Origin: Gautieria morchelliformis
Taxonomy: Eukaryota; Basidiomycota; Agaricomycetes; Gomphales; Gomphaceae
Length of the DNA: 64,000 nucleotides
Reading direction: 5' to 3'
Assembly: GCA_015179125.1 (NCBI GenBank)
Contig: WHVA01000274.1
Location: 1-64,000 of the forward strand
A program made the translations under genes and the position numbers. Shown piece by piece: positions 3,691 to 63,939 of the stretch (within the stretch, counting starts at the first letter, position 1; every line of letters starts with the position of its first letter). The notes under the pieces were generated by a model, which did not search any database, had not been told where the DNA came from, and saw only the letters and a list, made by a program, of their open reading frames with translations.

Positions 3691-5588
3691 AACAACCTCC
3701 CTGTTGCGAAACTCAAGTGTCTCCATGAACATTCCCGGAAAGGAGCTGGGTTTTGACTCTTTCACTATGTTATGTCCATCCTCCTGGAACCATTAATTGA
3801 GGCTGGCAAAAAAGGAGTCCAAATGACCTGTGCTGACCAGGACATTCGCATGGTCTACCCAATCTTGGCCACATATATTGCTGAATTCCCTGAGCAATGC
3901 CTCATTGTTGGGGTCCAGCCCACTGATTGCCCCATCTGCGAAATTGACTCTGATGACTGGGGGGAACCCAGCCATGCATCATTTCGTGACTCTGTTTGTA
4001 CCCTGAGTGCTCTCAAGGACTGGGTTGCCGAAGTCTCTTCAGAAGAATATACACGGCTAGGCCTCTGACCAATCCCCAAATCATTCTGGGCCGAACTGCC
4101 TCATATGGACATTTTTTCATGCCTCACGCCTGACCTCCTACACCAACTTCACAAGGGTGTATTCAAATATCATCTTGTGAAATGGTGTCTCACACATGCG
4201 GGTGCAGCAGACATTGATCAAAGGTTCCAGTGCATGCCAGATCATCCGAGTCTGCGATACCTCAAGAAAGGAATATCTATTATTACGCAGTGGACAGGGT
4301 GTGAATTCAAGGAGATGCAGCGCATCTTTGCAAGCCTGACAGATGGTGCAGTCCATTCAGAAGTGACCGCAGTTGCTTGCGCTGTCATTGATTTCATTTA
4401 TTACACATCATATCCCTCACAGTCTACCGAGAGTTTGCATATGCTCCAAGATGCCCTCGATACCTTCCACCAGCACAAAGAGATCTTTGTGAAGCTAGGG
4501 ATCCGCAAGCACTTCCGAATCCCAAAGATTCATATGATGGAGCATTATATTGCTCTCATCCAAGCGAAAGGGATTAGGGACACCTGATGGGTTTAATACA
4601 GAACTTTCAGAGTGTCTGCACATTGACTTTGCCAAAGAGGGCTATCGGGCCAGTAACAAGAAAAATTACATCAAAAAAATGGTGACATACCTTACACATT
4701 GTGATGCCATTCACAAATTCACAGCATTTCTCATTTGGACACACACCATCCCATATAGTCAGTCCAATTCCAATAAAGCAGACGAACCATTACATGTCCA
4801 GGAGCCAGTGGAACAAGTACCAGCCACTACGGTCGCTGCCGGTGCACCCACATGGAGTATCGCCAAGCGTGCACCATGGCCAAAAACCCCTGTTCAAACT
4901 CTCATCAAGAACCATGGAGCCATGGATTTTGTGCCAGCACTCCAGGCATACCTGAATGCTCATGTCCCAAAGGGCTGTGTCACCGCCTCTGTATATGACT
5001 TCGTGGATGTCTACAAACAAATCACCATTGACCTTCCATTGCCCCAACGACATACTGATGAGACCCAATGCGACACGATCCGAGCAACACCAGGTCATCC
5101 GAATCCTGGATGGAAGACGTCGGAGCCAGACCATTTTGATTGTGTTCTTGTCCATGAAGACGGTTTGGCAGAGGATGTTGGAATCAAAGGTGTGTCTCGG
5201 ACCCAGGGAATGTGATCATGGTCTAACACCCACGTCTGTTTAGGGTATCCTGCAGCGCGTGTCCGTGCTCTGTTCCGCCTACCTTCCTGGTTTGGGTGTG
5301 CTGATACTCTTGCATACATTGAATGGTTCACACCTGTCACACCGCCGGTTGTCCCATTGCGTATGTCACGAGTGTCATACGCCATGCACCAAGGTCACCG
5401 TCAAGCCGCTGTTATTCCGATCTCATCCATTCGGTGCAGTTGTGCTCTGACTCCCATCTTTAGCAAGCCACACCAGCGAGACAGAGGTTGAACTGCACGA
5501 ACAGTGCTTGAAAAATGCAGCCACTTTTTCTTAAATTCGCACCAGATATCACAGAGGTCGCTCACTGAGGTTTGCAGCCTCACTTGAG
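3691..5588 (+). pseudogene. Plavaka-type transposase, core and C-terminal part
   Basis: Core of a Plavaka transposase. Ordered family blocks are LPVAKLKCLHEHS, ILLEPLIEAGKKGV, PILATYIAEFPEQCL with a CPIC pair, FWAELPHMDIF, CLTPDLLHQLHKGVF, then the DGFNTELSECLHIDFAKEGY block and a C-terminal LAYIEWFTPV. A phase-1 GT-AG intron at 5190-5243 joins IKG to YPAARVRALFRLP. The gene is dead: in-frame TGA at 3754 and 4066, a frameshift near 4570, and another after about 5480, beyond which TVLEKCSHFFLN lies in a new frame. Compared with the family, roughly 90-120 residues between this and the fragment at 3-745 are missing or replaced by inserted LTR-element sequence. No terminal inverted repeat was identified. 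Confidence 0.75.
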
Positions 5589-8140: not shown

Positions 8141-9860
8141 CTATGCCGTGAGAGTAAGCAAAATGGCAGCCCACTGCTCCATGAACCCTTGGGTAACATC
8201 GGCCGGCATTGCTGCCACATTTGTATCAACACTGAGCATGAGTCTTCCTTTCCACGATGTTACACGGAAGAATCTATGCGACGGTTTAAGGAATAATCTC
8301 AGGAATTTATGATGGAAGTGACTTACGGCCCAGGATCGGTTTTATTTAATGCGACGAAGAAATCGTCAAGCTCGAGCACGACCTCGCTCCGGCTATTCTT
8401 ATGCACTGGGTCGAGATAAGTCTCACCTCTACCATCGCCTCCGTACCACGGACACATCCAAGGTGGTGGAGGCCTACGAGAATCTGGGCCATCGATAATG
8501 CACGGGCAGGGTATCAGCAGCTTACGGTGCGCCAGAACGCGGACCCGCCAGCATCATCTCAACCTGTTGCCCGTCGATTGCGAGAAGAGAAGGATACGCT
8601 TTCTGTTTCAGGTACTGATCCTTGACAATGTTCGCCACCTTGACCAGATATCCCCGGGTCTCATCTGTGGATATCGACAAGGAGGAGGGGCAGAGGCGTA
8701 ATGGAACTTGGATCACTGACATTCCCAAACAGTATCCTGGGTAAGCGTTTCGAGCGTTGTAAGGAGCTGAGAGGCGAGAACGGGTATCCACGAGACCATA
8801 GTATACGATGGCTGCGTCGGCGGGAGTGGACTCTTGCGCAGGGTTGTCGAACGCCGTGACAAGCGTCAGGGCTGCATGAGCTGCAAGTTCATTGTCTGTG
8901 AGCGAAAGGTTAACGTAGATAGCAACAGGTCCACCCACCGATATGGTTCAATGTAAAGCCAAGTACACGAGCGCTCTCAAGAATCTTATCGCTATCGGAG
9001 GCGGAAAACGTGTAGTCTAGACGGCGAGTGGGCCCAGGTCCAACCTTGCGCACTTTGAATCCGTGCAGACGCTGCAAGACGTGTTAGTTCCTTCATGGGG
9101 TGACAGATAGGCGATACGCAACCGGCAAGGCAGCTCCGATGTCCCCCAGTACTTCGGTCAACGTCTGGGTGTATCTGTCTCCTTCCCGGTCTTCGTATGG
9201 ACCCAAGATCTCAGTGACGCATGGCAATAAATTCTTTCCTTCCTCCCCCCAATGCAATGGCGGAGCTTTCCCACCGTCCGTGAAACGCTCTGCCAAGAGG
9301 GCGAGGAGTTTATTCCCCAGAACCTTTATTCCCACTCCATCGAAAGGCACGTGCGAAGTGTGGAGTAGTAGGGAGTAAGAAGTTTCAGAAGAGCCTGGGA
9401 GGACATAAAGGAGAGTCAGAGTGCCGTTCTCATCAGGAATATGGGCCTTGCTAAGCTCGAATCGGAGCTGATCGAGGCCTTGGGGTTCATTCGAAAGACG
9501 GACAGTCCGGTGCGCCCATTCTGCAGCTTCCTGGCTAGAAGCTGCCTGACGATAAGTCAAGAGGGTGTTTCCTGCAGCGTCATAGGCGATCTTCACTGCT
9601 ACCAGAGGAACTTGATGGCGGAGGACTTTCCATGCCTCACGAGCTTGCGAAAGAAAGTTGCTAGGCAAAATCGCACTGTGAAGGGTAACATGGAGTCCTA
9701 AGTAAAGGGTCTGCTCGCCATGGTTGAATCTGCTAAAGAAATCTTCTATGACCTCGCCCCCAAATGCTTCACGGAGGAAAACGTTGGTGTCATCTGGAGA
9801 CTGGCGCCACTGGAAGCGGGAATAGTCCAACGGAGGGATAGCGGGTGCAGCGCCAGCCAT
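8141..9860 (-). CDS. CoA-dependent acyltransferase / condensation-fold protein
   Basis: Five exons read cleanly on the minus strand: 9860-9123, 9071-8939, 8880-8526, 8473-8327 and 8273-8141, giving about 501 residues. Introns are 51, 58, 52 and 53 bp; the last three have good GT-AG signals and restore NHIAHAALTLV, PPPPPWMCPWYGGDG and DPGPFFRVTSW. The first donor (GTTGCG) is weak and least certain. Exon 1 holds HVPFDG (H170, D174), the HxxxDG catalytic motif of the chloramphenicol-acetyltransferase-like superfamily (condensation domains, TRI3-type trichothecene acetyltransferases). I saw no DFGWG motif. The C-terminal GRLMLSVDTNVAAMPADV resembles the last strand and helix of that fold. Likely role: transfer of an acyl group from CoA to a hydroxyl or amino group in secondary metabolism; the substrate is unknown and no cluster neighbours are visible. 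Start chosen as the first ATG of the open exon. It appears intact. Confidence 0.75.
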
Positions 9861-10163
9861 TATGTCTGCAGGTCTGGCTGGTGTTGGTTATAAATCACCG
9901 ATCACGTAGCGCTCTCGGCGCCTTGAATGATAGATGTTATGCATTGTGTGTTGTTTTGGCGGTTACAGGAAGTACAGCATGCAATGAATTTGCCGGTCTT
10001 CTCATGGACACCCCTGCGACTTTCAGTCCAGAGATACTTGGCTGAGGGCTGCAAGTCGAGCTCTCCTTGGATACGGTGTGTGAACGTGTTACGCGCAGTA
10101 ACTGAGTTCGAGGAAGAACATATTAGATTCTTATTGATATGGTGCGTATCTAGTCCTACGTAC

Positions 10164-17458: not shown

Positions 17459-18800
17459 TGGCCTTCATCTTTGCAAATTCACATGATCCCTCTTTGACAA
17501 AATCATTGAAGCCTCCGGCAAGCATGACTTTGGCTTTACTGCTAAGTATGCAATGTCAAGGGATTGCAGAGCCATTACACTGAATATATTTCAATGATAT
17601 GTGCACCAGACTTCAAACCCAACATTGTGTTCTGCATGACGGGTGCCTAAATTATGTTCCTAGGCAATCCCATTGCCTGACAGGTGCTTATATAAATGGC
17701 CAGAACCAAGTACATGCAAGTGAAACAGGCCCATGCGCAGCCTCCCCTCCGCAGTGTTGACTATCACTGAGGAGGTGAGTTTATTAGTGTATCTTCGTAA
17801 AATAGGTAGCTTTCCCTTATATTACTAGTGTTGATTATAGAACACTAAATAGTCTCCTGAAGGTTCCATCCATTGAACTACTGGTCTATAATATTCCACT
17901 GTGTCCATACCGAGTTATTACATGAATATGCTGAATCTATCCATATATACAAGAACATACCAAGCACCAATGGGAATCTTGATAGGACCTGCAGGCCAAA
18001 GCAGAAGCATATTACCTCGCTACAGTATTGATAAAGCTGTCCCATAAGCATCAGTATGCATTGATCAAAGGCTAGCATAAGAGCACAGATGTCTCCTGTA
18101 GTATACCCTTCTGTACTTCAAGCTCCTCCCTACAATATTTGAACATGGTGGCAATGCTAGCCATTCCTCTCATACCACCAATACTGGACACAATTTCAGA
18201 GGGATGAACATATTTGTACAGCTTATATGGGTCAGTGATCCTGGACATAATCAGTACATATTACATGTATGGGTGGTTTCTGCCTTTTTTGGATGAACAT
18301 GTCGTGTTGTCTTCCTTGTGTCAGGTGATTTGTGTACCACAGCATGTGGTGTTGGCATATTTTCTGCTTTTGTCAACAGTCTTACTGCCACACCTTCATC
18401 ACCTCATGTGGGTGGCTTTACCATGTGGCTGCTCCTCGTGGTGGCATACTTAGCCATACCATACCAGCAGCACCTAGGTGCATTACCAGCAATGCAGACA
18501 CCTCAGCTCTGGTCTGGGGGGCTGGAGGCTATGTGGGGGCCGTGAGGCCCATGTTGGTATGTTGTCTTCATGAACATACTGTTCTGAGAGCAGAAGTGGC
18601 CAGATGGGAAGCAGAAGCAGAACTGGAGAGGAGGGCATCCCCTGATAATCCTTGCTAATCTATCCTAGCACAAATACTGAGCTGACAAGCACACTATTCA
18701 TTGCACCATCACATAAAGCATCATATAACAAGTATGCTGTACAGTTACACATTATAACAACAAATATTGTCACAATGTTTCTACAGCAGGATACTTATTT
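17459..18800. other. No gene seen upstream of the Helitron stack
   Basis: No supported reading frame. The last bases (18801-18807, CTACAAA) are the displaced end of the Tc1-like transposase whose body lies at 31048-32264, so the right part of this stretch should be that element's 3' flank. I could not recognise its terminal inverted repeat. Confidence 0.45.
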
Positions 18801-18807
18801 CTACAAA

Positions 18808-18850
18808 CTAGGTGGGTACCCGCGCTTCGCGTGGGGGTGTAGGTCAAACG
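18808..18850 (-). other. Helitron 3' terminal hairpin and CTAG end
   Basis: On the minus strand a GC-rich hairpin is followed by ACCCACCTAG. The same terminus occurs at 24871 (GCGAAGCGCAGG hairpin, CTAG end), in weakened form at 25259 (CTGG instead of CTAG), and at 28388. The four copies identify one Helitron family and fix the element boundaries. Confidence 0.85.
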
Positions 18851-19008
18851 CCTTGGTAAGGTCAAACGCATCAGTAAGTCTAACACATCGGTAAGTCTAA
18901 CATATCAGTAAGGTCAAGTACATTGGGGAAAATCAAAGTAATCAATTTGCATCAAGTACAATGAAGTAAAACACATAAATCATATCAAGAGAAGTGGATA
19001 TAACAAAA

Positions 19009-21755
19009 TCAAGGAGATCTAAGTAATACATCTTTATATACAATGTTGGTTGTGTCCAAACCCTCCTCAAGCAAGACCTTCACTCTGTTACAGTTGGTCC
19101 CTCTTGATACACCAACATACAACTAACCATGTCCAAACACTGGATATCTCAGGTCCAGCCCAACCATACCCAAAGACTGTCCTGGAGACTTGTTGATAGT
19201 CATTGCAAATGCCAAACGCACTGGAAACTGCCTCCTTTGCAGCACAAATGGCAACTCTCCCTCTGATGGCTTAATGATGATCCTGGGGATGAAAGCAATA
19301 TTGCCTGCACATGGAACTGAGATGATCCTGACCTCCAACACTCTAATGCTTATCCTCACCAACTGCAACCTTGTCCCATTGCATAGTCCTTGCTTCTGAT
19401 CCAAATTGCGCAAAGCATCAGAGGCACTCCAGGCTTGACTTCCAAGCGAGCAGGAGGAAGACAGCCCATCTCTATGGAATTCAGATACTCCACAGGATAC
19501 CGATCTATATCGTCGGATTCTTCAATGGAATTTGCGCAGTGCAAGACCTGAGCATCACCTGGAAACTTCCTAAACACCATGGAATTGATCTCATTGACCT
19601 CAGTGTTTCTGGCACAGAGGATGGCACGCTCCAGAAAGTAATTGTCCTGGGCAGGGACTTGATTGCCACTGCCAGGGTATATTTCCTGGATCAGATCTTC
19701 AATTCCAGGGCCACAAACCATGTGAGGAGGGAGTGAGAACATATGATCTAGTGGGAGATCCTTTCCCTCGCCCACATTCTGCAGCCATTCTGCAAACCTG
19801 GCTCTGTCAGGGTCATTTCTCACCCGCATGTTCTCTGTCAGATGGAGGACCCTGATCTTTGGCCACAGATATGACTTCTGAAGGGTAGCTCCCACGATAT
19901 CCTCCTTGGAGCCTTTAGGGACAATTGGGAGAGTCTGCTGAAAGTCACCTCCAAAGGCGACTGTGATGCCACCAAAGGGTCTGTCAGGCTGGTCAAGGAA
20001 ATCCCTCAGTGTCCTGTCAATGGCCTCTATGGCATGGCGATGCTGCATTGCAGCCTCATCCCAGATGAGGAGACTGGCCTGTCTCAGCATATCAGCCTTG
20101 TCAGAGTTCTTTGTGATGAAGGAGAGAGAGCGCTCATGGACAGGAATGGGAATTCCAAGCATGCTATGAGAGGTTGTACCCTTAGTGAGGATAAGGGCAG
20201 CCATTGCAGATGAGGCTACTGCAATCACAATGAGGCTCTCCGCTCTACAGGAGTGGATTAGAGTGTTCCATGTGAATGATTTCCCAGCACCACCTGAGCC
20301 AGTGACAAAAAACATTTGTCCATCAGGTTTCCCATGAGCATCTCTGGTCAGTGCCGACCGTAATATCTGATCATGCGCAGACCTTTGCCCCTCATTCAGC
20401 CTGGGAACCTCCTCATCAGCTATGTCCCTCTCTGCAACAGGGTCATAGTCCCTCTGCTCAGCTATGAACCTGTTTCCAATGAGGGCCTCCCACTCGCCTG
20501 CCACCCGAGGCATATCATCAAAGCTGCTCAAGGACATTCCACCCTGCTGGAGGATTTTTTCCAAGAGAAAGAGGCCAAAATCATAAACCTGATCGTCCTG
20601 TGGATCCTGCATACCATGTCTGATTTGGAGCTGATGTCTGAGATCATCATATATGTGCTCCCTGAAGCCATCCCATAGTCTTCCGGGGCCTGATGGATTG
20701 CAATGGCCAAGGATGGTGGCAAAGAGATGTCTGAGCTGAGCACCTGTTTTCATGCCACTGGCTTCCTGGAGACACAACCTCAACTCCTGATCATCATCCA
20801 AAAGTCCCCTTGCATGACAGGCCTCCTTGTAAGTAGCATATTGTATGCCATCCACCGACCTAAGCTCCTCAAAGGATCTAGCCCCCTTGACCACTGTGAG
20901 GAGAGTGCGCACACAAAATCTCTCTCCTGATCTAGGGTTTGCAAAGTGAAGGCGACCGATGCTATAACCTCCTTGGCGTGGTGTCCATACCTTTTCCTGT
21001 GAGTGCCAGGTAAAATGCTCAGGAAACTCCACATAGAGCAGATCACGTGCTTCAGGGTAGATATCATTGGCCTCAAAGTAAGCCATGAGCGGTGTCTTTT
21101 TCGCCTCAGCCCTTTCCAGGATGTTGTCCACATCCTGGTTGGGATCAAAGATGATTGTGTGATGGTCCTTTTCATGGACTGGCAGTGCCATGACTGCAGG
21201 CACCTGGGTGTGGATTTCCCGCTCCAGCAACCTCCAACAGGCCTCATGAGCACTGACATAGCGAGCGTCCAGGTACTGCTTAATTTCATCCTGGGTGCGA
21301 CCAAACTCCATGGTTGTCCGATCATGGCCCTTGTAGAGATACTTGTGGATATACTTGATACACCTCACATTGATGGTGAGTTCAGGGTTGATGTGACACC
21401 AGAATTTGAGCAAGGGCAGAGCAGAGTATGGCACAACCCATCTGTTGTCCAGCATGTCACCTCTGACATTGTGCAGCCTTCCATCATTGCGACGACGAGA
21501 TTTTGGATATCCATCTACATTCACAACGGTCTCCTCACAGAATGGCTTTGGGAAGCCTTTCTTGCACTTGCCATTTTCCATGCAGGGTGCATTTGGATTC
21601 ATTTGTCCACAGGGACCATGTGTCATCAGCTCACAGACCAACTGGTAGAGGACAGGATGTGTCTCTGGATCAGGGAACTCTGCTGAAATCATAGAATCCA
21701 CCTCATGTGGATGTCTGATCTTGGAATCTCGTTCAAACCAGATAAGAATATGCAT
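19009..21755 (-). pseudogene. Helitron PIF1-type helicase (with the Rep C-terminal part)
   Basis: A 799-codon open frame (21755-19356) begins at the MHIL of the Rep HUH motif. It carries the Rep tyrosine region KYIHKYLYKGHD about 130 residues in, followed by a superfamily 1B helicase: Walker A GSGGAGKS, Walker B LLIWDEAAM, FGGDFQQTLPIV, and a late block RRQFPVRLAFAMTINKSPGQ. The helicase unwinds DNA during rolling-circle transposition. A one-base loss near 19415 moves the last block to another frame. An in-frame TAG at about 19123 follows FGHG, and the frame then stays open (LYVGVSRGTNCNRVKVLLEE) to a TGA at 19009. The front half of Rep lies upstream in a different frame. No introns seen. Confidence 0.85.
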
Positions 21756-24151
21756 GTGTGGGAGTCCCCTTTTCGGAATTCAATGGTGTGGACGCGAGCG
21801 ACGGTTTCCCCAAAAATCTTTTCCTTGACGATCAAGTCAATGAGGTATTTCTTTTTGAGCTGGAACACCCGCGACACCAGGTCAGGCCTGTCCTGAGGAG
21901 TTTGTCCAGGCAACAATGCATCCAATACCTCCTGCCAGTTGGGATTGGCAGTCATGGTAATAAAGAGATCTGCCACACCATGCTTCCTTGAAATGGCCAG
22001 AGAGTTCTGCAGGTTTTCCTGCATGTCCCGTGTCCCCCCCTGAAATGTGGCAGGCAGAATGGATCTTGTGCCCAAGTTGTTTGGATCTCTGTCATTGTCA
22101 TTGCGATGAAAGGCATCCATCATCTGGTTATACATCTCAGCACGGAGAGTGTGTTGATTTGTCCTGATCCACCACAGCCTGCTTTGCTCTGCAGCGGCCC
22201 AAGAATCTACAATGTACTGCTGGAATAATTTGCCAGCGCGCAGGAGTGTTGTAGGTTCTTCTGTTCTCTGGAAGAGACGATAGGAATGGAACTGAATTTG
22301 GGTGACACGCCCACTTCGCTCATGCCCGTCTGGTAATTGGCGATAGCGAATACCAGGTTGCTACCCCAACTCTCCCCTGGGAAAGAGCAAGACATAGTGA
22401 AGAGAGGCATAGTTTGGATTCATATCGGATACCCTTTTAAAACGTCCACCTTTGAGCTGGACAATAATATCCCTAGGTTCAGGGATGATGCCATCTCCAG
22501 GAAGAACCACCGCAATCTCATCTGCAGTAGGGATATTATACCTCCTAGGATCCCTGTGTTCCCTGTACGTGAGCCTAGCCCGGATCTCACCATTCTGTCC
22601 CTGAGATCTGAGCCTCTCAGCCGCTTGTCTATATATGGGAACATGAGGATTGCATAAGAGGAGCATTTCCTGCAAGTCTCCCATGATAGTTGGAGACAGA
22701 CCTGGGTTACGGGTGTTCCTCTGTGCCAAAGCCAATGCTGGATCATATATATAAAGTTGGGCATACTGTATCCGCCTCCCAGGGTTAGGGATGAGAGAGC
22801 CATGAATATGATACAGTTCGCCCTGCAGCTTGAGGACATATGGACCACGACCCTCCTGAAGCAAATCTAGATCAAAGTCGGCTCCCAAGGAAGTGAATGC
22901 AAATGCAGCATTGTACTGCCTGATGTTCTGGCGAAACTATTTGGCCTCAGGGTCCTGGCCCTCTAAGAGCTGTCTCAATGGCTGAGGGAGCACTGGCAGC
23001 TCTGGAAGCTGCACCTCTCCTTCCATACAGCAATCACCAAATCTGGGCCGCCAATTTGAGGATCTCTGCAGGCGTTCTGCCATCCAGTGTAATGCTCCAC
23101 AGTCAGGGCAGGGAATAACCATGGGACCCAGATCATGACGCTGCACATCTGCCTCAATTATTCTAGAGCGACCAAGTGGAACAGGAGGAGGAGGTCGCTG
23201 AGGACGCTGCCGAGGTACAGGGAGTGGCTGAGGAGGCTGAGGAGGTGCAAGGAGTGGCTGAAGAGGCTGTGGAGGTGCAGGGAGTGGCTGAGGAGGCTGA
23301 GGAGGAGCAGGGAGTGGCTGAGGAGGCTGAGGAGGTGCAGGCAGTCGCTGAAGAGGCTGCAGAAGTGCAGGGAGTAGCCGAGGCATTGGTCTTACTGCAT
23401 TATCCTGAGCCCGCAATGCTGCGACCACTGCAGAACCTACTACAGGAGGTCTAGGAGCTGGTTGTAAAGGTGCCTGCCTGTGTCTTCCCAAGGGCTGTGC
23501 TGGGATAGGCTGTATACCAGCAGCATGAGCATGCAAATCTGCCACCGCTGTAGAGCCTACTACAGGTTGTCCAATTCCAGCCGCCTGAGCATGCAACTGA
23601 GCAATTGCTGCAGAACCTACTACAGGAGCTGGCTGTACAGGGTCTGGCCTATTTCTTCTCAGGGGCTGTAATGGTGGGATACCTGCTAACTGTGCACAAA
23701 GGGCTGCCACCTGCTCTCCAGGACTGGGATCAGGTGGATATGATGGCCCCGCAAGCATAGGAAGGTGCAATGGAGCTGGCTGTACAGGGTCTGGCCTATG
23801 TCCTCTCAGGGGCTGCCATGGTGTGATAACTGCTAACTGAGCACGAAGGGCTGCCACCTGCTCTGTAGGACTGGGATCAGGAGCAAGTGATTGCCCCGCA
23901 GGCATTGGTGGACGTGATGGCCCTGCCACAGGTTGTTGAAAAGGATCGGCTGCACTGCTTCTAGAAGGAGGGTGAGGGATGGCAAAAGGCGGTGGTGGAG
24001 GGGGTGGCTGGTTCTGAGCTCCAATATGCGCTCTCCGACGCGCTCTCCGATGACTGGGTGGTGTCATCACCTCCTGCCCCTCCCTCGCACTTTCACGCAC
24101 CCGCCGACGGTTGCTCTCTGGGGTAGATGGATCCCTGAGAAATGCAGGCAT
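21689..24151 (-). pseudogene. Helitron N-terminal and Rep (HUH endonuclease) region
   Basis: One frame runs from ATG at 24151 to 21689. Residues 1-330 or so are proline-rich with internal repeats (PPQPPQPLPA units), followed by a CPDC...CC cluster that may bind zinc. After an in-frame TAG at 22937 come FRQNIRQYNAAFAFTSLG and the Helitron helicase-like N-terminal domain (YNIPTADEIAVVLPGDG, ASLHYVLLFPRGE). A second in-frame TAG at 22361 precedes RYRQLPDGHERSG. A one-base loss near 21755 then breaks the frame exactly at the HUH motif (GLPHMHIL), whose second half opens the helicase frame. Rep normally nicks and joins single strands at the Helitron ends. Losing continuity at its catalytic histidines means this copy cannot supply it. 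Confidence 0.8.
23178..23400 (-). repeat. Coding minisatellite, proline/glutamine-rich
   Basis: Tandem units of about 30-36 bp (plus-strand core GGAGTGGCTGAGGAGGCTGA) encode repeated PAPPQPPQPL on the minus strand, inside the N-terminal linker of the Helitron protein. The unit length is a multiple of three, so the frame is kept. Opposite-strand frames through it are shadows. Confidence 0.8.
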
Positions 24152-24327
24152 AAGAGTAGAGAGAGGATAAAGATATCAATATCAGACTTACATCGCAAGC
24201 AGACTAAGGCAAACTCAGGGAAAACAGGCTGTGCGGGTATCTCAGATGGATTGCAAAGCCACTGATCCTAATATAAATACTGCAATAGCAGATACAGTTA
24301 CAAAAATGTACCAGAAAGGGGATAATA

Positions 24328-24590
24328 CCCAGGTAGGGTATGCAGTAGTGACTGGACAAATGCACTTGAAAAGTGCCTACAAAATGCCAAAAAAGCAAAG
24401 TTATAGCAAATAAGGACACAATAAGCATCAGGAAAAGGCAGATACAACAGCATAACACTCACCAGAAACACCCAGGTACTCAGTGCACCAGTGACAGGAC
24501 AAATATCACTTGAAAAGTGCCTAAAAAAGGCCAAAAAAGCGAAATTATAAATAACCAACATAAAAAGGCAGTTTTAGTAGCATCAAACTC
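24328..24590. repeat. Two-copy tandem repeat, about 143-bp period
   Basis: The block CACTTGAAAAGTGCCTA with surrounding words (ACTGGACAAAT or ACAGGACAAAT, GCCAAAAAAGC) occurs twice, starting near 24328 and 24471. It lies in the 5' leader of Helitron A, upstream of its first ATG. Confidence 0.65.
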
Positions 24591-25050
24591 ACCAGAAAGA
24601 ACCTAGACAGGATGTTAATGGAAGGGATACAGGTGGTGGGAGGGATGGGATGGGATGGGATGATGGTAGAAGGAGGGCAGAGGGGACTGGCTGCGCAGCG
24701 TCTGCCAGGTCAGCCAGCGCTGTACCGGCAAGCCCCAGAGACCGGTTGGTCTGGGCTGGGCCAGGGCCTAGGGCTCACGGCTGCGCCGCTCGCTCCGCTG
24801 ACCTAATTTTTACGTAACATTATTTGTCAGCGGTGCGCCCACAACCCACTGAGCGCGTTTCACTCTTAGACTAGGTGGATACCTGCGCTTCGCGTGGGGG
24901 TGCAAGTCAAATGCCTCGGTAAGGTCAAACACATCAGCAAAGTCAACCACCTTGGGTAAATCAAACTTGGGATAAGTCAAAGACATTCAGATAAGTAAAA
25001 TGCATCTTATTGATTAAAAGTAGCTCTAAGTAACACATTGAGGTAGGTAA

Positions 25051-25255
25051 TGTTATGACCATGCTGCTTGACCAACTCTGGTACCTCTGCACCTCCTCTG
25101 ACTCTATTCCGCAATGTCCACACTTCGACCTTTTGATCTCCTGTTCTTTCCTATTCACATATTTCCCCTTATGACTCTATTCACCAGCCTTCCTTACTTA
25201 ACCCTTAACATAGCAATTCCGGAGCATCAGGAGTTCCATTTTTTCCGCTATCAAT
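25051..25255 (+). mobile_element. LTR fragment inside a Helitron (fossil)
   Basis: The first roughly 200 bp of an LTR (TGTTATGACCATGCTGCTTG onward), sitting behind the same flank GGTAGGTAA as the complete solo LTR at 25440. It ends where the next Helitron 3' end begins. It is a partial copy made with the Helitron, not an independent insertion. Confidence 0.7.
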
Positions 25256-25439
25256 TCCCTGGGTGGGTACCCACACTTAACATGGGGGTGCAAGTCAAAT
25301 GCATCGGTAAGGTCAAACACATTGGGTGAATCAAACTTGGGATAAGTCAAACACATTCGGATAAGAAATTTTCATTCAGATAAGTCAAACTCTTCTTATT
25401 GATTGAAAGTAACTCTAAATAACACATCAAGGTAGGTAA

Positions 25440-26080
25440 TGTTATGACCATGCTCAACCAACTCCGGTACCCCCGCACCTCTGACTCTATTCCACAATGT
25501 CTGCACTTCAACCTTGTGATCCCCTTGTTCTTCACATATTTCCCCTAATGACTCTTTTCACCAGCATTCCATACTTGACCCTCAGCACAGCAAGTCCAGA
25601 GCGTCAGGAGTTCCATTTGTTCCGCTACCAATTAGACCCTTGGTCTTTTGCCTATTGTTCTTAGTTCTACACTGCACCCCCTTGTAGTTCCTCTTGTTTC
25701 GCATTAGGTACTTTTATTCTAGTTACTTGCACTGGAATTGCTTACCTCTACCTTCTGACATGTTGTCTCAGCTCTTTGTATAAAACCCAGTCATGTGTGC
25801 CTCTGTTCAGCAATCAGATAATCGACTTTGATATGTCACTCCCTTTGCACTGTCTCCGGTTCTTAGACCTGCAAGGCCTCTGTCTCTCTGACCTCCGTCT
25901 TCCAACTTGATTTCTCATATCCAACTTAACTCAATTCTTGAACCCTTACTACTTCAGTTACAATACTCAACCTCTTCCAACTTCCAATCTCAGATCTCCA
26001 AAATACTTAGGATGATAGTTGGGGGTGCAACATATAAGTTGGAGCTGCAGTCCTTTTAGATCCAAACCTGATACATAACA
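25440..26080 (+). mobile_element. Solo LTR in Helitron B (fossil)
   Basis: A 641-bp LTR, TGTTATGACC...GATACATAACA, with a 5-bp target duplication GGTAA (25435-25439 and 26081-26085). No internal retroelement sequence remains. Probably Ty3/gypsy type from its TGTTA-TAACA ends and 5-bp duplication. The same LTR at the same Helitron position in the other copies shows it was inserted before those Helitrons spread. Confidence 0.85.
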
Positions 26081-26099
26081 GGTAATGACTCTACACATT

Positions 26100-27060
26100 T
26101 CTCCCATGTCTCATGTCCCCTACCTCACATGTAGTGTGTCCTTGCCTGTAGTGTGTCATCACACTTTATCTGTCCTCACACGTATTGCATCCTCACATGT
26201 GGCATGTCCCCACACGTAGTGTGTCCCAAAGCATAGTGTGCGTAGTGTGTCTCCACATGTAGCATGTCTCCATATGTAGTGTGTCCCCACATGTAGTGTG
26301 TCCCCACATGCAGTACAGTGTGCATGGCATGTCCCACATGCATAACATGTCCCTCAAGTATTCTGTGTGTAGCATGTCCCTGGTTTGTAGCATGTTCCCA
26401 AACATAGCGTGTCCCTAAATTATAGCATGTGTGTCCCCCATGCATAGTGTGTCCACATGTGTAGCATGTCCCTACATGTAGTGTGTGTAGCGTGTCCCCC
26501 AAGTATAGCTTGTGTAGAATGTCCCTTGTTTGTAGTGTTTTCCCCTGTAGTGTGTCCCCTGTTTGTACCATGTCCCCCAAGCATAGTGTGTCCCCACATA
26601 TAGTGTGCACATCCCCATGCATAGCATGTGTGTCCCCATGCATAACATGCGTGTCTCCACGCATAACATGAGTGTCCCCAAGTATAGTGTGTGTGTCTCC
26701 ACGCATAACATGGGTGTCCCCAAGCATAGTGTGCGTGTCCCCAAGCATAGCGTGCGTGTCCCCACGCATAACATGCATGTCTCCATGCATAGCGTGCGTG
26801 TCCCCACGCATAACATGCATGTCTCCATGCATAGCGTGCGTGTCCCCAAGCATAGTGTGCGTGTCCCCACGCATAACATGAGTGTCTCCATGCATACCAT
26901 GAGTGTCTCCACACATAGCATGCGTGTCCCCAAGCATAGCGTGTGTGTCGCATCCCATGCATGTCTCCACGCATATGCATGTCCCCATGCATAGTGTGTG
27001 TAGCATGCCCCTCAAGTATAGCATGCATAGCATGTCCCAATGGCATGTGTAGCATATCCC
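26100..27060. repeat. 21-bp minisatellite, Helitron B
   Basis: Tandem array with unit close to GCATAGCGTGCGTGTCCCCA plus one base; units are regular from about 26600 to 26960 and more degenerate to the left. Because 21 is a multiple of three and the unit lacks stops, long open frames run through it in several frames on both strands (for example 27072-26176 minus, reading MHGDTHVMRGDTH). These are not genes. Confidence 0.9.
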
Positions 27061-27194
27061 CAAGGGCCTCAAAGTGAAGCAAGCAGAGGCTGTTACTGCT
27101 TATTAACTTTTAGCAAGCTCAGGGACATGTATCAATATCTATTTTGTGACATATACAGACATAAATAAAATAGTCAAGGAATCTATATTTAAGC

Positions 27195-27470
27195 AGCTCC
27201 TGTCATTAATTTTTAGCAAAGTCAGGATTATCTATTTTCGAAAAAATGTCAAGAAAATGTCCAGTACATGTAAGCTGAAGCTGTTATTAATTTTAGCAAA
27301 GTTAGGATTATCTATTTTTCGAAAAATGTCAAGAAAATGCACTGTACATTTAACCTGGAGCTGTTGTCAATTTTCACAAAGTCAGGATAATTTATTGATA
27401 TATATTTGCGAAAAAATGTCAAAAAAGCACAGTACATTGAAGCAGAAGCTGTTATTAATGCCCAGCCAAA
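27195..27470. repeat. AT-rich tandem units of about 75 bp
   Basis: Three to four units, each with TTAGCAAAGTCAGGATTATC, then a gap and AAAAAATGTCAAGAAAATG, then GAAGCTGTTATTAAT. The same array is at 30130-30400 in Helitron C. It lies just 5' of the minisatellite in the Helitron's own orientation. Non-coding. Confidence 0.8.
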
Positions 27471-28586
27471 GCCAGAGAAGCCCAGAGACTGACAGAGAAA
27501 CCCAGAGCCCAGCCAAAGCCATAGTAAGCCAGCCACCAGTATAGCCAGAGAGGAGTGGCTGGTAAGTGGCTTTACAGTAAATAAAACAATAAAACAAACC
27601 ACATTTAAAAGCAGAATCTCATTAATTTTAGAGGGAACTTATTGATGTCTATTTTCGAAAAAAAACCTGAAAAATATTGATATTAAAATACTTTTTTTTC
27701 AGCAGTCTTTGGATTTTATTTAAATCTATTTTCGCAAAAAAATAACAAAAATATAAAGCACATGTGAATGCAATATGATAAAAAAAAAGGAACCAATAAA
27801 ATTATAAACACAAATCAAATCAAATACATTGGAATGCATTAAAAAAGAGATATTACTTACCAATAGATAGCCAGCCAAGCCAATAGATAGTCAGCCAACC
27901 AAAGCCATAGACAGCCAGCCAGCTAAAGGAGGAGACAGCAGACAGAGCTGACAGCAGACAGCACCCAGATCAGACAGAGCACAGAGCAGACAGCGGACAG
28001 AGCAGACAGCGCAGAGCACAGGGCACAGGGCACAGAGCACATAGCGGACAGCAGACAGAGGAATCGCCGGTTGGGCAGGTTCCTGGCGTTATGTCCTTAC
28101 CGTTCGGCCTTTATACCGTGCGCGCGTGTCGTGCACGGACCACACTCGCGTATGCGCGCTCTGGTCGCGAACGGGTCACGTGACCACTGCGCAGCGTTCT
28201 CTCGCGGCTGCGCCGCTCGCCGCTGACCTAATTTGGAACGCAAACGGTCATGTGACCATGCTGCCCAGCGTTCTTGGCTCGCGGCTGCGCCGCTCGCGCG
28301 CTCCGCTGACAAACTAATGACCAAGCATTGGTCAGCATTTGTCAGCACGCCCACAACCTCCCACCTAGGCGCTTTCATATAGTGTAACTAGGTGGATACC
28401 CGCGCTTCGCGCGGGGGTGCAAGTCAAACGCCTCGGTAAGGTCAAACGCATCAGCAAGGTCAAACACCTTGGGTAAATCAAACTTGGGATAAGTCAAACA
28501 CATTTGGATAAGAAAATTTCATTCAGATAAGTAAAACACATTTTATTGATTGAAAGTAGCTCTAAGTAACACATCAAGGTAGGTAA

Positions 28587-29644
28587 TGTTATGACCATGC
28601 TGCTTGACCAACTCTGGTACCTCCATGCCTCCTCTGGCTCTATTCCACAATGTCCACACTTTGACCTTTTGATCCCCTTGTTCTTTACTATTCACATACT
28701 TCCCCTTTTGACTCTATTCACCGGCCTTCCCTACTTGACCCTTAGCATAGCAAGTCCGGAGCATCAGGAGATCCATTTGTTCCACTATCAATGTTACGAC
28801 TGTTCTGCTCAACCATCTCCACCATATCCACATATCCTCCGCACCACCTCTGCACCGCCTCCGCACCATCCGCAACCCTCTACCTCGACCCTTGTGATTT
28901 CAGTACCCCTGGCCACCTCCAGATACCGGCCCCCGTACTCGACCCTGAATACAGCAAGATACCATGTCCATAATTCCGTTTCTTCCGAGGCCTATTGTAC
29001 TTACTCGCCTTGTTCTTTGCCATTGTACTTACCCTACCCTGCACCCCCCTTGTCATCCCATTGTTCCGCATTAGTTACTTGCCCCATATGTCTATCCGAT
29101 TCTTGCACTCTCCGGAATTTGCTTAGTACCATACCATTACCTGTTGCTTCAGCTCTTTGTATAAACCCCCCTCATGTATGTCTCCGTTCCTGCAATCAGA
29201 TAATCAACTTCGATACGTGATTCCCTTCGCACTGTCTCCTGTTCTTAGCACAGCGGGTTTTGCTAGTCTTGTCTCCTTCCGCTCTCAACCCTCTGTCCTC
29301 CGCCTCTTCCGCCTCTTCCGACCTTTGTTCTCCGACCTTCGAACCTGGACTCTCAGTACTCTGTTCCTGACTTCTGCCTTCTCCGATATCCGCAAGTCAA
29401 TCCCGAAATACTTAGGACGGTAGTTCATCAGGGGTGCAACACATAAGTTGAAGCCGTTGTCCTTTCCAGTTCCGACCTCTGGGAATTCCAATACGTAACA
29501 ATCAATTAGACCCACATTCCCCTTGTTCTTTTGCCTATTGATTGTTCTTAGTTCTACCCGGCACCCCCTTGTAGTTCCTCTTGTTCGGTATTAGTTACTT
29601 ACTCCATTTATCCTAGTTACTTTGCTTGCACTGGAATTGCTTAC
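28587..29644 (+). mobile_element. Old LTR carried by Helitron C, split by a younger LTR (fossil)
   Basis: An LTR start TGTTATGACCATGCTGC follows the same flank GGTAA seen in Helitron B. It runs to 28791, is interrupted by the younger solo LTR, and continues from about 29506 to 29644, where the minisatellite begins. Broken; the older of two layers. Confidence 0.7.
28792..29500 (+). mobile_element. Younger solo LTR nested in Helitron C (fossil)
   Basis: A 709-bp LTR, TGTTACGACTG...AATACGTAACA, with a perfect 5-bp target duplication ATCAA (28787-28791 and 29501-29505). It is related to the older LTR around it (shared CAGCTCTTTGTATAAA and AATCAGATAATC). No internal region remains, so it arose by recombination between the two LTRs of a full element. 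Confidence 0.88.
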
Positions 29645-29965
29645 CACGCATAACATGCATGTCCCCAAGCATAGCGTGTATGTCCCCATGGATAGCATGC
29701 TTGTCCCCACGCATAACATGCGTGTCTCCACACATGCTGCATGCATAAAATGTGTGTCTCCAAGCATAACATGCGTGTCACCATGCATAGCATGCATGTC
29801 CCCAAGCATAGCGTGTGTGTCCCCACACATAACATGTGTGTCTCCATGCATAACATGAGTGTCTCCACACATAGCATGCATGTCCCCAAGCATAGCATGC
29901 ATGTCTCCACACATAACATGCATGTCTCCACGCATAACATGCGTGTCCCCATGCATAGTGTGTGT
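29645..29965. repeat. 21-bp minisatellite, Helitron C
   Basis: Units such as GCATAACATGCGTGTCTCCA plus one base, about 15 copies, followed by GCATAGTGTGTGTAGCATGCCC as in Helitron B. Frames through it on both strands are artefacts of the 21-bp period. Confidence 0.9.
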
Positions 29966-31047
29966 AGCATGCCCCTGAAGTATAGCATGCATAGCATATC
30001 CCCAAGGGCCCCAAAGTGAAGCAAGCAGAGGCTGTTACTACTTATTAACTTTTAGCAAACTCAGGGACATGTATCAATATCTATTTTGTGACATATACAG
30101 ACATAAATAAAATAGTCAAGGAAACCATATTTAAGCAGCTGCTGTCATTAATTTTTAGCAAAATCAGGATTATCTATTTTGCGAAAAAATGTCAAGAAAA
30201 TGTCCAGTACATGTAAGCTGAAGCTGTTATTAATTTTAGCAAAGTTAGGATTATCTATTTTTCGAAAAATGTCAAAAAAATGCACTGTACATTTAACCTG
30301 GAGCTGTTGTCAATTTCACAAAGTCAGGATAATTTATTGATATCTATTTGCGAAAAAATGTCAAAAAAGTACAGTACATTGAAGCAGAAGCTGTTATTAA
30401 TGCCCAGCCAAAACCAGAGAACCCAGAGACTGACAGAGAAACCCAGGGCCCAGCCAAAGCCATAGTAACAGCCACCAGTATAGCCAGAGAAGGAGTGCCT
30501 GGCAGCTTTACAGTAAATAAAACAACAAAAAAAACCACATTTAAAACTAGAACCTATTGTCAATAGGAACGAATAAAATTACCAACACAAATAAAATAAA
30601 ATACATGGCAATGCATTAACAAACAGATATTACCTACCAATAGATAGCCAGCCAGCCAAAGCAATAGACATCCAGCCAGCTAAAGGAGGAGACAGCAGAC
30701 AGCAGCCAGCAGCCAGAGCAGACAGCAGAGAGAGGAATCGGCGGTTGGGCAGGTTCCTGGCGTTACCTCCTTACCGTTCGGCCTTTATACCGCGCGCGCG
30801 TGTCGTGCACGGACCACGCTCGCGTATGCGCGCTCTGGTCGCGAACGGGTCACGTGACCGCTGCGCAGCGTTCTATGCTCGCGGCTGACCTAATTTGGAA
30901 CGCAAAGGGTCACGTGACCATGCTGCGCAGCGTTCTTGGCTCGCGGCTGCGCCGCTCGCGTCCGATTGGCCAGCTGACTAAGGCTGACCTAAAACCTGAC
31001 ATAAGCTCGACGCCCACAACCCACCGAGCTGTTTTCATATAGTGTAA

Positions 31048-32264
31048 TACCTTGAATGTGTCATCCAGCCCTTGCAATGCTCTGCAGTAATGGTGGCAAG
31101 GGCACTGTGAAAGAACAATAGTACAGAACCTTGGTCTTTAGCATCAACCGCCTGCCGAAAGGTATCCCCATGACGCCTGAGGTAAGATTTCAGATATGAA
31201 AAGGCTTCTTCAATTGGGTTGAGGTCCGGTGAATAAGGCGGCAAGTAGTATCGCCATACACCACTGTTAAAATGCTTAGCCTCCATTGAAACATAAAAAA
31301 CAACAGTAAATGACTTACCGCTCCTGGCAAATTTCTGAGACTTCTGCTGCATGGTGAATAGCGCAATTGTCCATGACAAGCACACTGCGGCGCTTAGGCC
31401 ATGGTTCATATGAGGCATGAGGTTGGTGATGAACTGGATAAACGAGGCTGAATCATAAGCCCCTTCCCACACATCCGAGTATATTATACCCTCTGCACTA
31501 AGGGCCGGTAAGAGAGATTACCTATATAATCCAAATGAATCAACAGTAGATGCACAAAGGAATATACACTCACCCAGTACCTTGTACAAACTTAGCTTTC
31601 ACTGAAGCTCTCTTTCCCTTGGGAGCCCATCCATTCAGACGATATGTGGTGCGACAATCAATACGGCTCTCGTCGATAAACACAAGACGCTCCGGGGACT
31701 CATGACCAATTTTGAAACCAAATAGAGTGCGCAAATTTTCATTGCGCTCGGCAGCGACCTTGGACAGCTGTGGAAAGCATGAGTAGACTAGAAGAGGGCG
31801 AAGCATTAGAACATACCTTTTTGCGGGTGAGACCAAGGTCTGTCATTGTGTCCCATAAGGTGCTGATTCCAACTGTTATCCCATACAGGCGCTGCATGAT
31901 TGTTTGTATCTCGTCCAAGTATAGGTCAGGGAACTGCTCTGTAAGCCGAAGAAGAAACTACAGTAATATACAAAGTGAGAAAATATGATCATCTTCACTC
32001 TGTAGTGGAAATGCTTACCTCCATTTCCTCTGGAGTCATAATCTTCCTTCTATTTCCCGTCTTTCCATGTCCCTGCATAACTACCTCACCAGTAGTACGC
32101 CACAATTGGAGGATGCGCTCGACAACACGTTTCGACATGTTCAGATCAAGTGCGATGTCATCGATCTTCTTCTCCCGTGTGAACCATTGGTAAATTACAC
32201 GCTTCCGGAGGTCTTCAGAGTACGTTTGACGCTCCCTTTGGTGTTCATGCATGTAGCGAGGCAT
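31048..32264 (-). CDS. Tc1-like transposase (IS630-Tc1-mariner), last codons displaced
   Basis: Transposase of about 340 residues on the minus strand, starting at ATG 32264 ([20 protein letters not shown]). An N-terminal helix-turn-helix ([20 protein letters not shown]) is followed by the DDE domain: first Asp in [10 protein letters not shown], second in [12 protein letters not shown], and Glu in [13 protein letters not shown] about 34 residues later. Short GT-AG introns separate the blocks, for example one after EEME near 32020-31955, one after TRKK near 31818-31770, one after KFVQG near 31580-31510, and one after EICQER near 31315-31263. No lesion was noted in the exons. The reading frame ends in the Helitron stack: the sequence stops after SRY, and the missing end (TTG TAG) is found beyond the stack at 18801-18807, giving GWMTHSRYL, which matches the GWMKDSGYL end of the second Tc1-like copy. 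Confidence 0.8.
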
Positions 32265-32588: not shown

Positions 32589-35500
32589 CTCCCCCTCAGC
32601 GAGAAGTCCCTTCGACAAAATCCTAATTTCCCTAATAGATACCTGTGTTGGTGTAAATCCAATCCCTTTGTAAATATGTCCGCTACGTTCTCCTTCGTCG
32701 GTACGTACGTAAGTGATGCCTCGTGAGAGGCCACTTTCTCACGGATGAAATGATATGCGACATTGATGTGTTTGGTACGCGCATGATATGTTGCGTCATG
32801 CGATAGTGTAATGGCGCCTAGATTGTCTGATCGAAGTGACGTGGGCTGGGTTTGATCGATTCCTAGTTCCTCGATGAAATGCCTCAGCCAGATTAATTGC
32901 TTGGCGCCCTCGGTAAGTGCCATGTATTCGGCCTCCGTGGTAGATAGCGCGATCGTTCGCTGCTTCTTCGAGCTCCATGCGATAGTTCCCCCTCCTAGTA
33001 TAGCTACATAGCCACTAATAGATAGTGCGTCGTTTCTATTAGCATAATCTGAGTCAACGAATATTTCGAGGTCGAGACCAGCGTCTTGTCGGAAGGTTAT
33101 GCCGTCGTCACGTGACCCCTTGAGGTACCTGAGCGCGTGCTTGATCGCGCCGTCCAGTGCTCGGTTCCATAAGTAGTAGTGAATTGGCTCAGATGTTGTA
33201 CGGTAAAGGCCAAATCAGGTCGCGTGCTGAGTGCTGCATACATTAATGATCCGATCGCTTTGGCATAGGGTACTTCGGCAGTTGGACCTGTTGAGTCCAT
33301 GGGTGTCATGAGTTTGATCATTTTATGCAGAGGTGTAGATACCGAATGAGCCGTTGTCATGTTGAATCGATCGAGTATGATGTCAATGTAATGTCCTTGA
33401 GACATGATCAGTGTTCCCTCATCCCTATTCCTCTCAACTCTAATTCCCAAGATTTTCTTCATTTCTCCTAAATCTGTTAAAGGGAATTTTCCATGGAGCT
33501 CCCCCTTGAGCTTAATCATCCCTCCCTTGGAGTCAGCAAATAGTCCGAAGTCGTCCACATATACTGATATGACTTCAATTGAATCCTTATCTTGTCTGAT
33601 GTAGACGCATTCATCGGCTGTACTTTGATGGAAGCCGAGATCGAGTAGTAATTTGCGTAAGCGCTGATGCCAAGCTCGTCCCGATTGCTTGAGTCCGTAG
33701 AGCGCTCTGTATATTCTTAGAATGCGTCCAGATCCATCATCAAAACCGTCGGGCTGGCGCATGTAGATCTCCTCATCTATGGTTGAATTGAGGTAGGCGC
33801 CTTTGACATCCATCATTTCGATTTCCCAATCAAGTGTGTTTGCGATCGCTAATAGAACACGTAGTGAATCGAATTTGACCACGGGTGAGGTTATCTCGTA
33901 GTAATCCATCCCTGGCCTCTGTGTGAATCCTTGAGCCACAACCCTTGCTTTGGCCTTATCGAATTGTCCGTCCGGTTGTGTTTTGACAGTGTATACCCAT
34001 CGGCAACCGATAGCTACTCGTCCGGGTGGTAGTTCTGTTAATTCCCATGTTCCTAATGTCTTGTGTTGATCCATCTCAATTTCCATTGCTTTCTCCCAGA
34101 TCGGCGCATCATCACGTGATACCGCCGCTCTGTAATTCTCAGGTTCAGTGACGATTTCTTTCGTTATGTAAACCTGCTCGGTGCGTCCTGAATCATTCAG
34201 CTTCCGGTAATCCGGTCTTTGGGTGATACGCGCGCTCCGTCGAATCTGTGGAGCTGGCGCTTGTTCAGGTGGATCAGGAACGGGCGTTGTCTGGGGTGAT
34301 GACGTCTGTGGGGTAGATGTCATTGGGTCTGGCACATGCTCGCGCGGTGAGTGCTCCCCCTCGAGCGGTGCCGTGTCGTCATCGTCGTTATCTGGGATGG
34401 GGTAGAGTCGGTTGTCATTTTCATCAAATGTAATGTTCCTAGAGACTTGAACGTGCTTTGAGGCTTTATTGTAATACCTCCAGGCTTTTGCATGTTCTGC
34501 TACTCCGACGAAGATATGTTCTTCTGCCTTTGGATCAAGTTTGGCTCGACGTTGATCCGGCACCATAACCCAACAATTTGTTCCGAATTCCTCTAGACGT
34601 GCTATGTTTGGCTTCTTGCCGAATAGTGCTTGGAACGGCGTTGCGTCATCTCCAAGCGCTCGCGTGGGTGATCTATTTTTGATATAGCACGCGTAAGCCA
34701 CGGCCTCGGGCCAGAGTATTTTTGGCAGGTTCTTGGCAAATATCATTGCCCGTGCGTGCTCGAGTAAGGTCTGGTTGAGTCGTTCGGCGATTCCATTCTG
34801 GGCTGGGGAGTATGGAGCTGTGGTCTCCATGATAATGCCATATTTTGCACAAAAATCCTTGAAATTTTTATTGACATATTCCCCTCCATTATCCGAGCGA
34901 AACCTCTTTAGTTTCTGACCTGTTTGGGTCTCGAGGAATGCCTTGTACGTCTCGAAGTGTTTGAGCGCTTCATCTTTGGTGCTCCCAAAATAGATTACGG
35001 TGTACCTCGATTTGATGTCCGTGAAAGAATAAAAGTATTTCTCACGCGATGGTCCCTCGGTCTGGGCAGGTCCCCATACATCGGATACTGTTAGGTCACC
35101 GACCTGTTCTACAGTGTCCTCGGCTCTTTTGGGGAACGGCTCCACATGCCGTTTGCCTTGTATGCACGCATTCTGGCTCAGCTCGTTTGACTCGTCGATC
35201 TCAAGTCCAGTAACTAGATCGTTAGATTTCAACATCTTTATAGAATTTATGTTGACGTGCCCGAGTATCCTGTGCCATTTGTCCCATGACCGTCCTTTTG
35301 CCGCTGCGGCAAAGTCCCGTGCCTTGACTGATCGAGTGACCCGTGCCTTCATACAGAACAGCCGCCCGCGCTTCTGTCCCTGTGCGAAGGTAACTCCGGT
35401 GCACGTTTTGAATTCGACGCCGGTGCCTGAAAATGTGGCCGCGTTACCCTTATCAGTTAGACGCCCTACACTGATAAGGTTGTTCGGCGCATCTGGTGCG

Positions 35501-36648
35501 TGTTTGACATCACGTAGCTCGATCGTGTTCGTCTTGGCGCCGATCTTGAATTCCATGTATATAGTGCCTCGGCCTTGTGTATGTAGTACCGCACCGGGTG
35601 AAATTCCTTCGATTTCCGATGGATCCTCGGCATAGCTAGCGAAATCATTTCGGCTTCTAGCTATGTGTGTTGTTGCCGCTGAATCGGCTAGCCAGTCGGA
35701 TGCGGATATAGCACTGTATGCTACCTCCTTAGATACAAACGCGAAGTCTTTTTCTTCCGCTTGTTTAACCGTTTCTTTGTTCCCTGATTTGAACCACTTC
35801 GGTGCTTGGCCCTCCTTGCCGCCACCTTTCGCCCAGCAGTCCTTCACGTAATGACCTTTCTTGCCGCAATTTCGGCACTTTCCCTTTGTTGCTCCTGAGT
35901 CGTCTTTCTTGGGCCTGTGACATTGTTGCGCTTTAAGCGCCGTTTGCCGTGCCGATCCAGCTTTCCGTGCTCAATTCTCATCGAGGACCCGAGCTATTAA
36001 TATATCAGCTGTTGTCCCGGCTCCACTGGCGTTTACTGCCGTAATAAACGCCGACCAAGAATCTGGTAATGACGTCAGCAACGTGTTCGAGAACTCGGTG
36101 TCACTGATGTAATGTCCCCGCGCATTCAGTTCCTGTTGAATGCCGCGGAGCTTGCGTACGTGCTCCTCCATGTTCGCGCCATCCTCGGCAAGCATCCTGA
36201 AGAAATCTCTTCGGAGATTTACAATCCCCACTTCTCCCTTTGATTCAAATATTGCTTGTAGACTAGTCCATACAGCAAATGCAGACATCGTCTGATTGAT
36301 GTAAACTAGTTGTTCATCGGCAACTCTGAGGCAAATCTCTTTTCTAGCTTTCTTGTCCTTCCTTCTCCAATCGTCGATTTCCTGCTGCTCGGTCACAGTG
36401 ATGTTGTCGGCATCTGCCAGTCTCGGTTCCGTCTCCCTGCCGATAGCCACGTCCCACAGATCTAAATCATCGAGTATCCACTCGAGCCGCCGGCGCCACG
36501 CCGCGTAATTATCCCCGTTCAAGGGGTCGATCTTGTACGTGTTGTTGCTACTCGACATCGTCGATCAGTTATTGAGTCATTGGAGTATAGAGCGTAGTTG
36601 GAGTAAGCTAGATGTGTAATAGTTTAGTTATGGCCGGGGCCCATAACC

Positions 36649-63723: not shown

Positions 63724-63939
63724 TGTTGTGAATCCGATTGACCAGTCGCCGAGTCGGCACCACCTTCTCTTTTTGGACAATATTACTAAGCAACTAGTAT
63801 GGCTACCCAACTCGTGTAAGACGGCGCTTCAGACTTTCTTCTGACGCCGTCCAGGTATTTACAGTTGGACTCCTTAATAACAGACTTTCTTCTGACGCCG
63901 TCCAGGTTCTGATACTGCCTATAGAGCTTGCTCACAATA
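63724..63939 (+). repeat. Copia 2, 3' LTR
   Basis: 216 bp; carries a 51-bp internal segment bounded by direct repeats of CAGACTTTCTTCTGACGCCG that is missing from the 5' LTR. Confidence 0.9.

Follow-up and report, generated by a model that had tools for sequence, protein, structure and literature searches.

Stacked Helitrons at a single A^T site in Gautieria morchelliformis and their probable insertion on the 5' side of resident elements

Three Helitrons, here called C, B and A, lie on the minus strand of a 64,000-nucleotide stretch of contig WHVA01000274.1 of Gautieria morchelliformis (the window), abutting with no bases between them, at one A^T site in the end of a Tc1-like transposase gene. 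This stack is typical of the genome, being one of hundreds. We observe precise abutment at a single A^T site, the same arrangement on a genome-wide scale, and 5' ends of resident elements that are split by newcomers. It is quite probable that the stack consists of separate Helitrons that inserted successively at one A^T site, each on the 5' side of the resident, and from this we infer that A is the oldest, followed by B, with C the youngest.

The stack and its empty site

Read along the minus strand, the sequence runs AGGTA / TTACACTATATG...CACCTAG (C) / TTACACTATATG...CACCTAG (B) and continues after B with TCTAAGAGTG...CACCTAG (A) / TTTGTAG. The element boundaries proposed in an earlier note on this DNA are correct to the base (Table 1). 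A 3'-end pattern with up to three mismatches has three matches in the window, namely the three claimed ends, where 0.03 would be expected. The terminus CCACCTAG is common to the 3' ends of A, B and C and follows a GC-rich hairpin region in each of them. The earlier note had described every element as ending in a hairpin plus CTAG. CTAG, a 3' terminus of the CTRR type, is present in all three, and the hairpin of C is strong (-9.6 kcal/mol, with 0 of 200 shuffles equally good), whereas those of A and B are weak (11 and 20 of 200 shuffles equally good, respectively). At the 5' end, A starts with TC, as canonical Helitrons do, while B and C start with TT.

Table 1. Features of the stack and its flanks (positions in the window)
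Feature	Position	Strand	Remarks
Tc1-like transposase gene remnant 5' of the stack	31048..32260	-	DDE_3 (PF13358) in last exon; upstream extent judged by eye
Helitron C	28388..31047	-	non-coding, 2660 bp; 5' end TTACACTATATGAAAACAGC, 3' end ...CACCTAG; outermost 5' member; 5' flank AGGTA of the empty site
3' end of C	28388..28416	-	hairpin CCCGCGC-GAA-GCGCGGG, spacer, CTAG
Helitron B	24871..28387	-	non-coding, 3517 bp; 5' end TTACACTATATGAAAGCGCC; decayed 3' end in interior
Degenerate internal 3' end in B	25240..25300	-	...CACCCAG; second copy of 3' region then follows
3' end of B	24871..24899	-	base changes weaken hairpin; CTAG
Helitron A	18808..24870	-	6063 bp, remains of a Rep-helicase element; 5' end TCTAAGAGTGAAACG
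A: piece of Rep region	21689..22360	-	Helitron_like_N (PF14214), E 3.4e-50; contains FITMTANPNWQE
A: Rep continuation in a different frame	20901..21770	-	starts RGLPHMHILIWFER; without Pfam match by itself
A: open frame with PIF1-like helicase domain	19356..21779	-	PF05970, E 1.9e-65
3' end of A	18808..18836	-	weaker hairpin, CTAG, then host T
Other half of the target: last Tc1-like codons and downstream flank	18748..18807	-	used in empty-site comparison

The Rep endonuclease and PIF1-type helicase that characterize canonical Helitrons are both found in A, through PF14214 and PF05970. Its Rep-helicase gene consists of remains in several frames, split by stops and at least one frame shift. We take RGLPHMHILIWFER in the Rep continuation to be an HUH-like HMH motif. 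In the list of open frames, no large Helitron frame was found in B or C. A relative of B on contig C188 is 96.5% identical over a 3530-bp alignment. Within B itself (25240-25640, minus strand) a decayed inner 3' end comes before a stretch of about 370 bp in which the 3' region of B is repeated; the relative on contig C188 has kept CTAG at this inner end, with GG as the next bases. The inner end looks like an old 3'-end bypass or the result of nesting. B and C have a 21-bp minisatellite in common (26532-27009 and 29677-30049), in differing copy numbers.

The earlier note had proposed that the outer flanks rejoin to an intact Tc1-like end at a single A^T site, and had pointed to other copies of this Tc1 family for comparison. 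Uninterrupted copies do exist, and they bear the proposal out. A search with the Tc1 tail gave 40 scored matches, from which 30 loci were fetched; one was the window itself and 29 were compared. Of these 29 paralogous copies, 26 have the empty site AGGTA^TTTGTAG uninterrupted, 17 of them exactly as AGGTATTTGTAG and 9 with one or two base changes, and the other three (L056, L058, L059) yielded no site. The downstream flank of the window is matched at 50 or more of 60 bases by 18 of the 26 read-through copies. In the window, 12,240 bp lie between one A and one T, with 0 bases lost and 0 duplicated, and on reading the sequence the last transposase residues appear altered, not truncated, by the 5' end of C. 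Insertion between A and T without target duplication is that of canonical Helitrons; Helentrons insert at TT and the FoHelis of Fusarium oxysporum between T and A (PMC4067079, PMC5148889), and neither kind of site is found here.

Other features were noted along the window, among them short introns and domains of fungal type. A copia-type retrotransposon (33097-36564, minus strand) lies near the 5' end of the Tc1-like remnant, and another is found at 59537-63741 (plus strand). A fragment at 4069-4587 (plus strand) matches the end of the Plavaka transposase family (E 1.4e-15), and a frame at 9093-9887 (minus strand), perhaps a host gene, matches PF07428 (Tri3-type acetyltransferase, E 2.5e-14).

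Junctions across the genome

The earlier note had also suggested a genome search for tandem junctions. A pattern that joins the last 3'-end bases to the 5'-end core occurs 540 times in the 122-Mb genome and 0 times in the reversed control; these are pattern counts, in which diverged ends are missed and duplicate contigs (L031/L037) are counted twice. Under a rough chance model of random A^T insertion, 0.02 junctions would be expected. The 5' core alone has 814 matches genome-wide (control: 3) and the 3' end 1024 (control: 0). Among the first 100 matches listed of the 814 5' cores, 65 abut the CTAG of another element. On contig C182, 11 same-strand junctions (pattern matches) stretch over some 48 kb, at intervals of 2 to 7 kb. 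A subtelomeric or telomeric array was considered, as several junctions are found on short contigs or close to contig ends, but is not proposed here. Junctions with about 11-46 extra bases number 0, and a few of those listed are offset by 2 to 8 bases. Given 540 junctions of the same kind, an assembly join as the origin of the stack appears very unlikely.

For an estimate of independence, 32 junctions (30 loci and the two of the window) were compared pairwise, giving 496 pairs with 700 bp per side; the pairs of L021, which has 180 bp upstream only, are incompletely compared. At 90% identity or more, 2 of the 496 pairs share both neighbours, 51 the upstream one only and 21 the downstream one only. 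The corresponding figures are 15, 64 and 55 at 85% identity, and 27, 60 and 111 at 80%. Several of the pairs added at lower thresholds are unequal, with 98% identity on one side and 85-86% on the other, which is not expected from a copied unit. L031 and L037 are 100% identical on both sides and lie on short contigs; some junctions are thus duplicate contigs. By these comparisons the sampled junctions would mostly not be copied units, and copied tandem units are mostly ruled out as their origin by the 2 of 496 pairs that share both sides at 90%, with the proviso that the result depends on the threshold.

Polarity of insertion and rival explanations

Genome-wide there are 111 occurrences of the 5' end TTCCTATAGGTGAAAG with A, C or T just before it; ends preceded by G were left out by design, as junctions give G. 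In the 100 listed, the preceding base is A in 96 cases, T in 4 and C in 0. On the other side, 34 of 35 distinct 3' ends precede T, in a sample enriched in junctions, and the exception is an internal end. If the A^T rule holds, a newcomer is barred from the position between a resident's CTAG and the next T and is allowed after the host A, ahead of the resident's first T, so that newcomers come to lie on the 5' side.

Two types of resident 5' end have an internal A^T a few bases in. A search for CTAG fused to an inner segment of such 5' ends gave 8 matches, of which 7 are at the expected internal A^T. Three of the 7 split loci (contigs C656, C723 and C1103) are near-identical over 4 kb (96.7-98.4%), which leaves about 5 independent splitting events. 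On contig C188 (L072) the outer stump of the split end lies upstream of the newcomer and the remainder downstream. Contig C1070 (L077, L089) reads CTAG, the stump TTCCTA, a 6.3-kb element, a 3-kb element and then the remainder TAGGTGAAAG. On contig C78 the stump TTACACTA precedes a newcomer whose own 3' end is in turn followed by a third element; this fits a stack within a split end, which runs off the contig.

The stump TTCCTA is repeated before a full 5' end in 15 of 18 matches. At nine inspected loci with such stumps, the remainder was found downstream in two (contigs C188 and C1070). A different full 5' end after the stump is clear on contigs C471, C353, C364 and C743 and probable on C152 and C164; on contig C452 the 3' end was not seen in the stretch read. 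Contig C188 has four stumps and a single remainder. With a remainder at 2 of the 9 inspected loci, TTCCTA stumps are ruled out as a simple proof of insertion in place. The remaining stumps would be explained by composite transposition from an outer stump, as in the FoHelis, or by slippage. At positions 1-110 of L072 on contig C188, partial 5' ends of two types follow one another (TTACACTATA, the longer TTACACTATATGAAAACAGCTCG, and TTACACTATA again), with four TTCCTA and then one full element. At L086 (contig C353, minus strand) a unit of about 50 bp, made of a type II 5' end and TTCCTA, is present in two copies ahead of a full type III element.

The earlier note had left open whether the stack arose by repeated insertion or by rolling-circle read-through. 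Repeated insertion, on the 5' side of the resident, is better supported. In read-through, a 3' end is bypassed or the circle is traversed more than once, and the array is inserted as one unit. This is the published account of tandem Helitrons in bat and silkworm (PMC4067079), and the internal 3' end of B is such as a bypassed terminus would leave; the similarity of C656, C723 and C1103 and of L031 and L037 further points to copying of some composites, whether by transposition or as duplicate contigs. However, the neighbours in a rolling-circle array are copies of one element, whereas A, B and C are unlike in length, in content and partly in their 5' ends. Pairs of junctions that share one neighbour (72 at 90% or more over 700 bp) stand against 2 of 496 that share both, and resident 5' ends split at an internal A^T are left unexplained by read-through, which we regard as an unlikely origin. 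That B and C share a 5' end while A has a different one had been taken by the earlier note to indicate at least two events; the argument is weak alone, since the 5' ends have a core in common and most differences between them fall in the outermost bases.

Insertion of the newcomer on the 3' side, just after the resident's CTAG at G^T, would make C the oldest element. While this directly fits maize lines in which, of two abutting Helitrons, the left one alone is present (PMC2267711), it requires G^T as a target, and in the listed TTCCTATAGGTGAAAG ends outside junctions the base before is A (96 of 100) or T (4). Splits inside 3' ends, in a search with at most one mismatch that covers one dinucleotide found in part of the 3' ends, number 0 as against 7 inside 5' ends, and 3'-side insertion appears decidedly unlikely. 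In a fusion before insertion, the 3' end of one element, already excised, would be linked in trans to another element's 5' end, and the resulting chimera would insert once. This would yield precise and heterogeneous junctions, each independent and with no A between the elements; it does not predict the stump and remainder that flank newcomers on contigs C188 and C1070, and we consider it highly improbable.

Known tandem Helitrons and a possible mechanism

Tandem or adjacent Helitrons are already in print for bat, silkworm, maize and fungi. A close case is a pair in maize (PMC2267711), in which, as here, dissimilar Helitrons abut, with CTAG followed by TC and a G/T junction. Maize lines with both Helitrons, the left one only, or neither are described; the left-only lines suggest that the right Helitron came later at G^T or was excised. 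The authors of this work name two routes, a 3'-side insertion at G^T and the use of the A^T that the resident's 5' T forms with the host A. Their report concerns one case, with the polarity left open and the PCR data leaning the other way, whereas here 540 junctions and split 5' ends are available. In fungi, one FoHeli of Fusarium oxysporum is inserted 2 bp upstream of another, three elements are stacked in Metarhizium acridum, with 5'-end insertion as one of the readings offered, and several short 5' termini are repeated in the elements described; for the Fusarium composites a start of transposition at the outer stump is proposed (PMC5148889). Unlike the elements studied here, the FoHelis are of the Helitron2-like kind, with T/A as their insertion site, and the published passages report them as single cases, not genome-wide (PMC5148889).

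Head-to-tail junctions are likewise known from tandem Helitrons of bat, silkworm and plants (PMC4067079, PMC5876387), and distantly related Helitrons are directly adjacent in bat and maize (PMC4067079). These tandems are mainly attributed to bypass of the termination signal (PMC4067079, PMC5876387), whereas in G. morchelliformis the neighbours are mostly dissimilar and the junctions mostly independent. Maize Helitrons with multiple termini, which resemble the present elements in having several 3' or 5' ends each, are explained by nesting and subsequent transposition of the composite (PMC3288121), and we propose that the extra 3' end of B and the TTCCTA stumps may have arisen in the same way; the nesting in these maize elements is inside elements, not at the 5' border (PMC3288121). 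Relative to these sources, what is new here is the scale, the precision and the evidence on polarity, while the idea of 5'-side insertion at A^T had been stated for the maize case (PMC2267711). No report of a genome-wide preference for resident 5' ends was found among the titles, opening parts of abstracts and passages of the literature searched.

Under successive insertion on the 5' side, A would have entered the Tc1-like gene first, with a host A on one side and a host T on the other. Together with the first T of A, that host A would restore an A^T, where B could insert, and C would have followed between the host A and B, so lengthening the stack on its 5' side. If this process is common in the genome, the resident 5' end must be a strongly preferred target. 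A shared Rep-helicase would most likely recognise the common 5' core GTGGG...TTGTGGGCG and nick at or just inside the resident 5' end, as it would in starting transposition; the incoming strand would then be joined into the nick, its 5' end to the host A and its 3' CTAG to the resident's 5' T. We tentatively hypothesize that the initiation nick of the resident is itself the target: the Rep-helicase may bind the 5' core of any family member and open A^T, and incoming single strands may be joined there, possibly aided by pairing of the incoming CCACCTAG with CTNGGTGG of the resident (about +18 to +26). Asymmetric terminal inverted repeats mark Helitron2 elements and Helentrons. In the present sample of 31 distinct 5' ends, 29 contain at least 6 of 8 bases of the complement of CCACCTAG, for the most part between +18 and +22, as compared with a mean of 9.0 and a maximum of 15 in mononucleotide shuffles, the ends being related and not independent. 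As a lead, this near-complement could guide the incoming end.

The choice of target and the origin of head-to-tail Helitrons have so far been argued from single cases, in terms of read-through, 3'-side insertion and 5'-side insertion. With about two thirds of the 5' ends of one group abutting another 3' end, the question becomes countable. If the resident 5' end is the preferred target, the start site of the enzyme would double as its landing site, and mixed arrays would be explained without breaking the A^T rule; the family would also possess a built-in means of keeping copies out of genes. With the initiation nick as the target, these Helitrons would be self-targeting transposons, each new copy settling on an older one, so that host genes are spared and arrays form in which members of the family are mixed.
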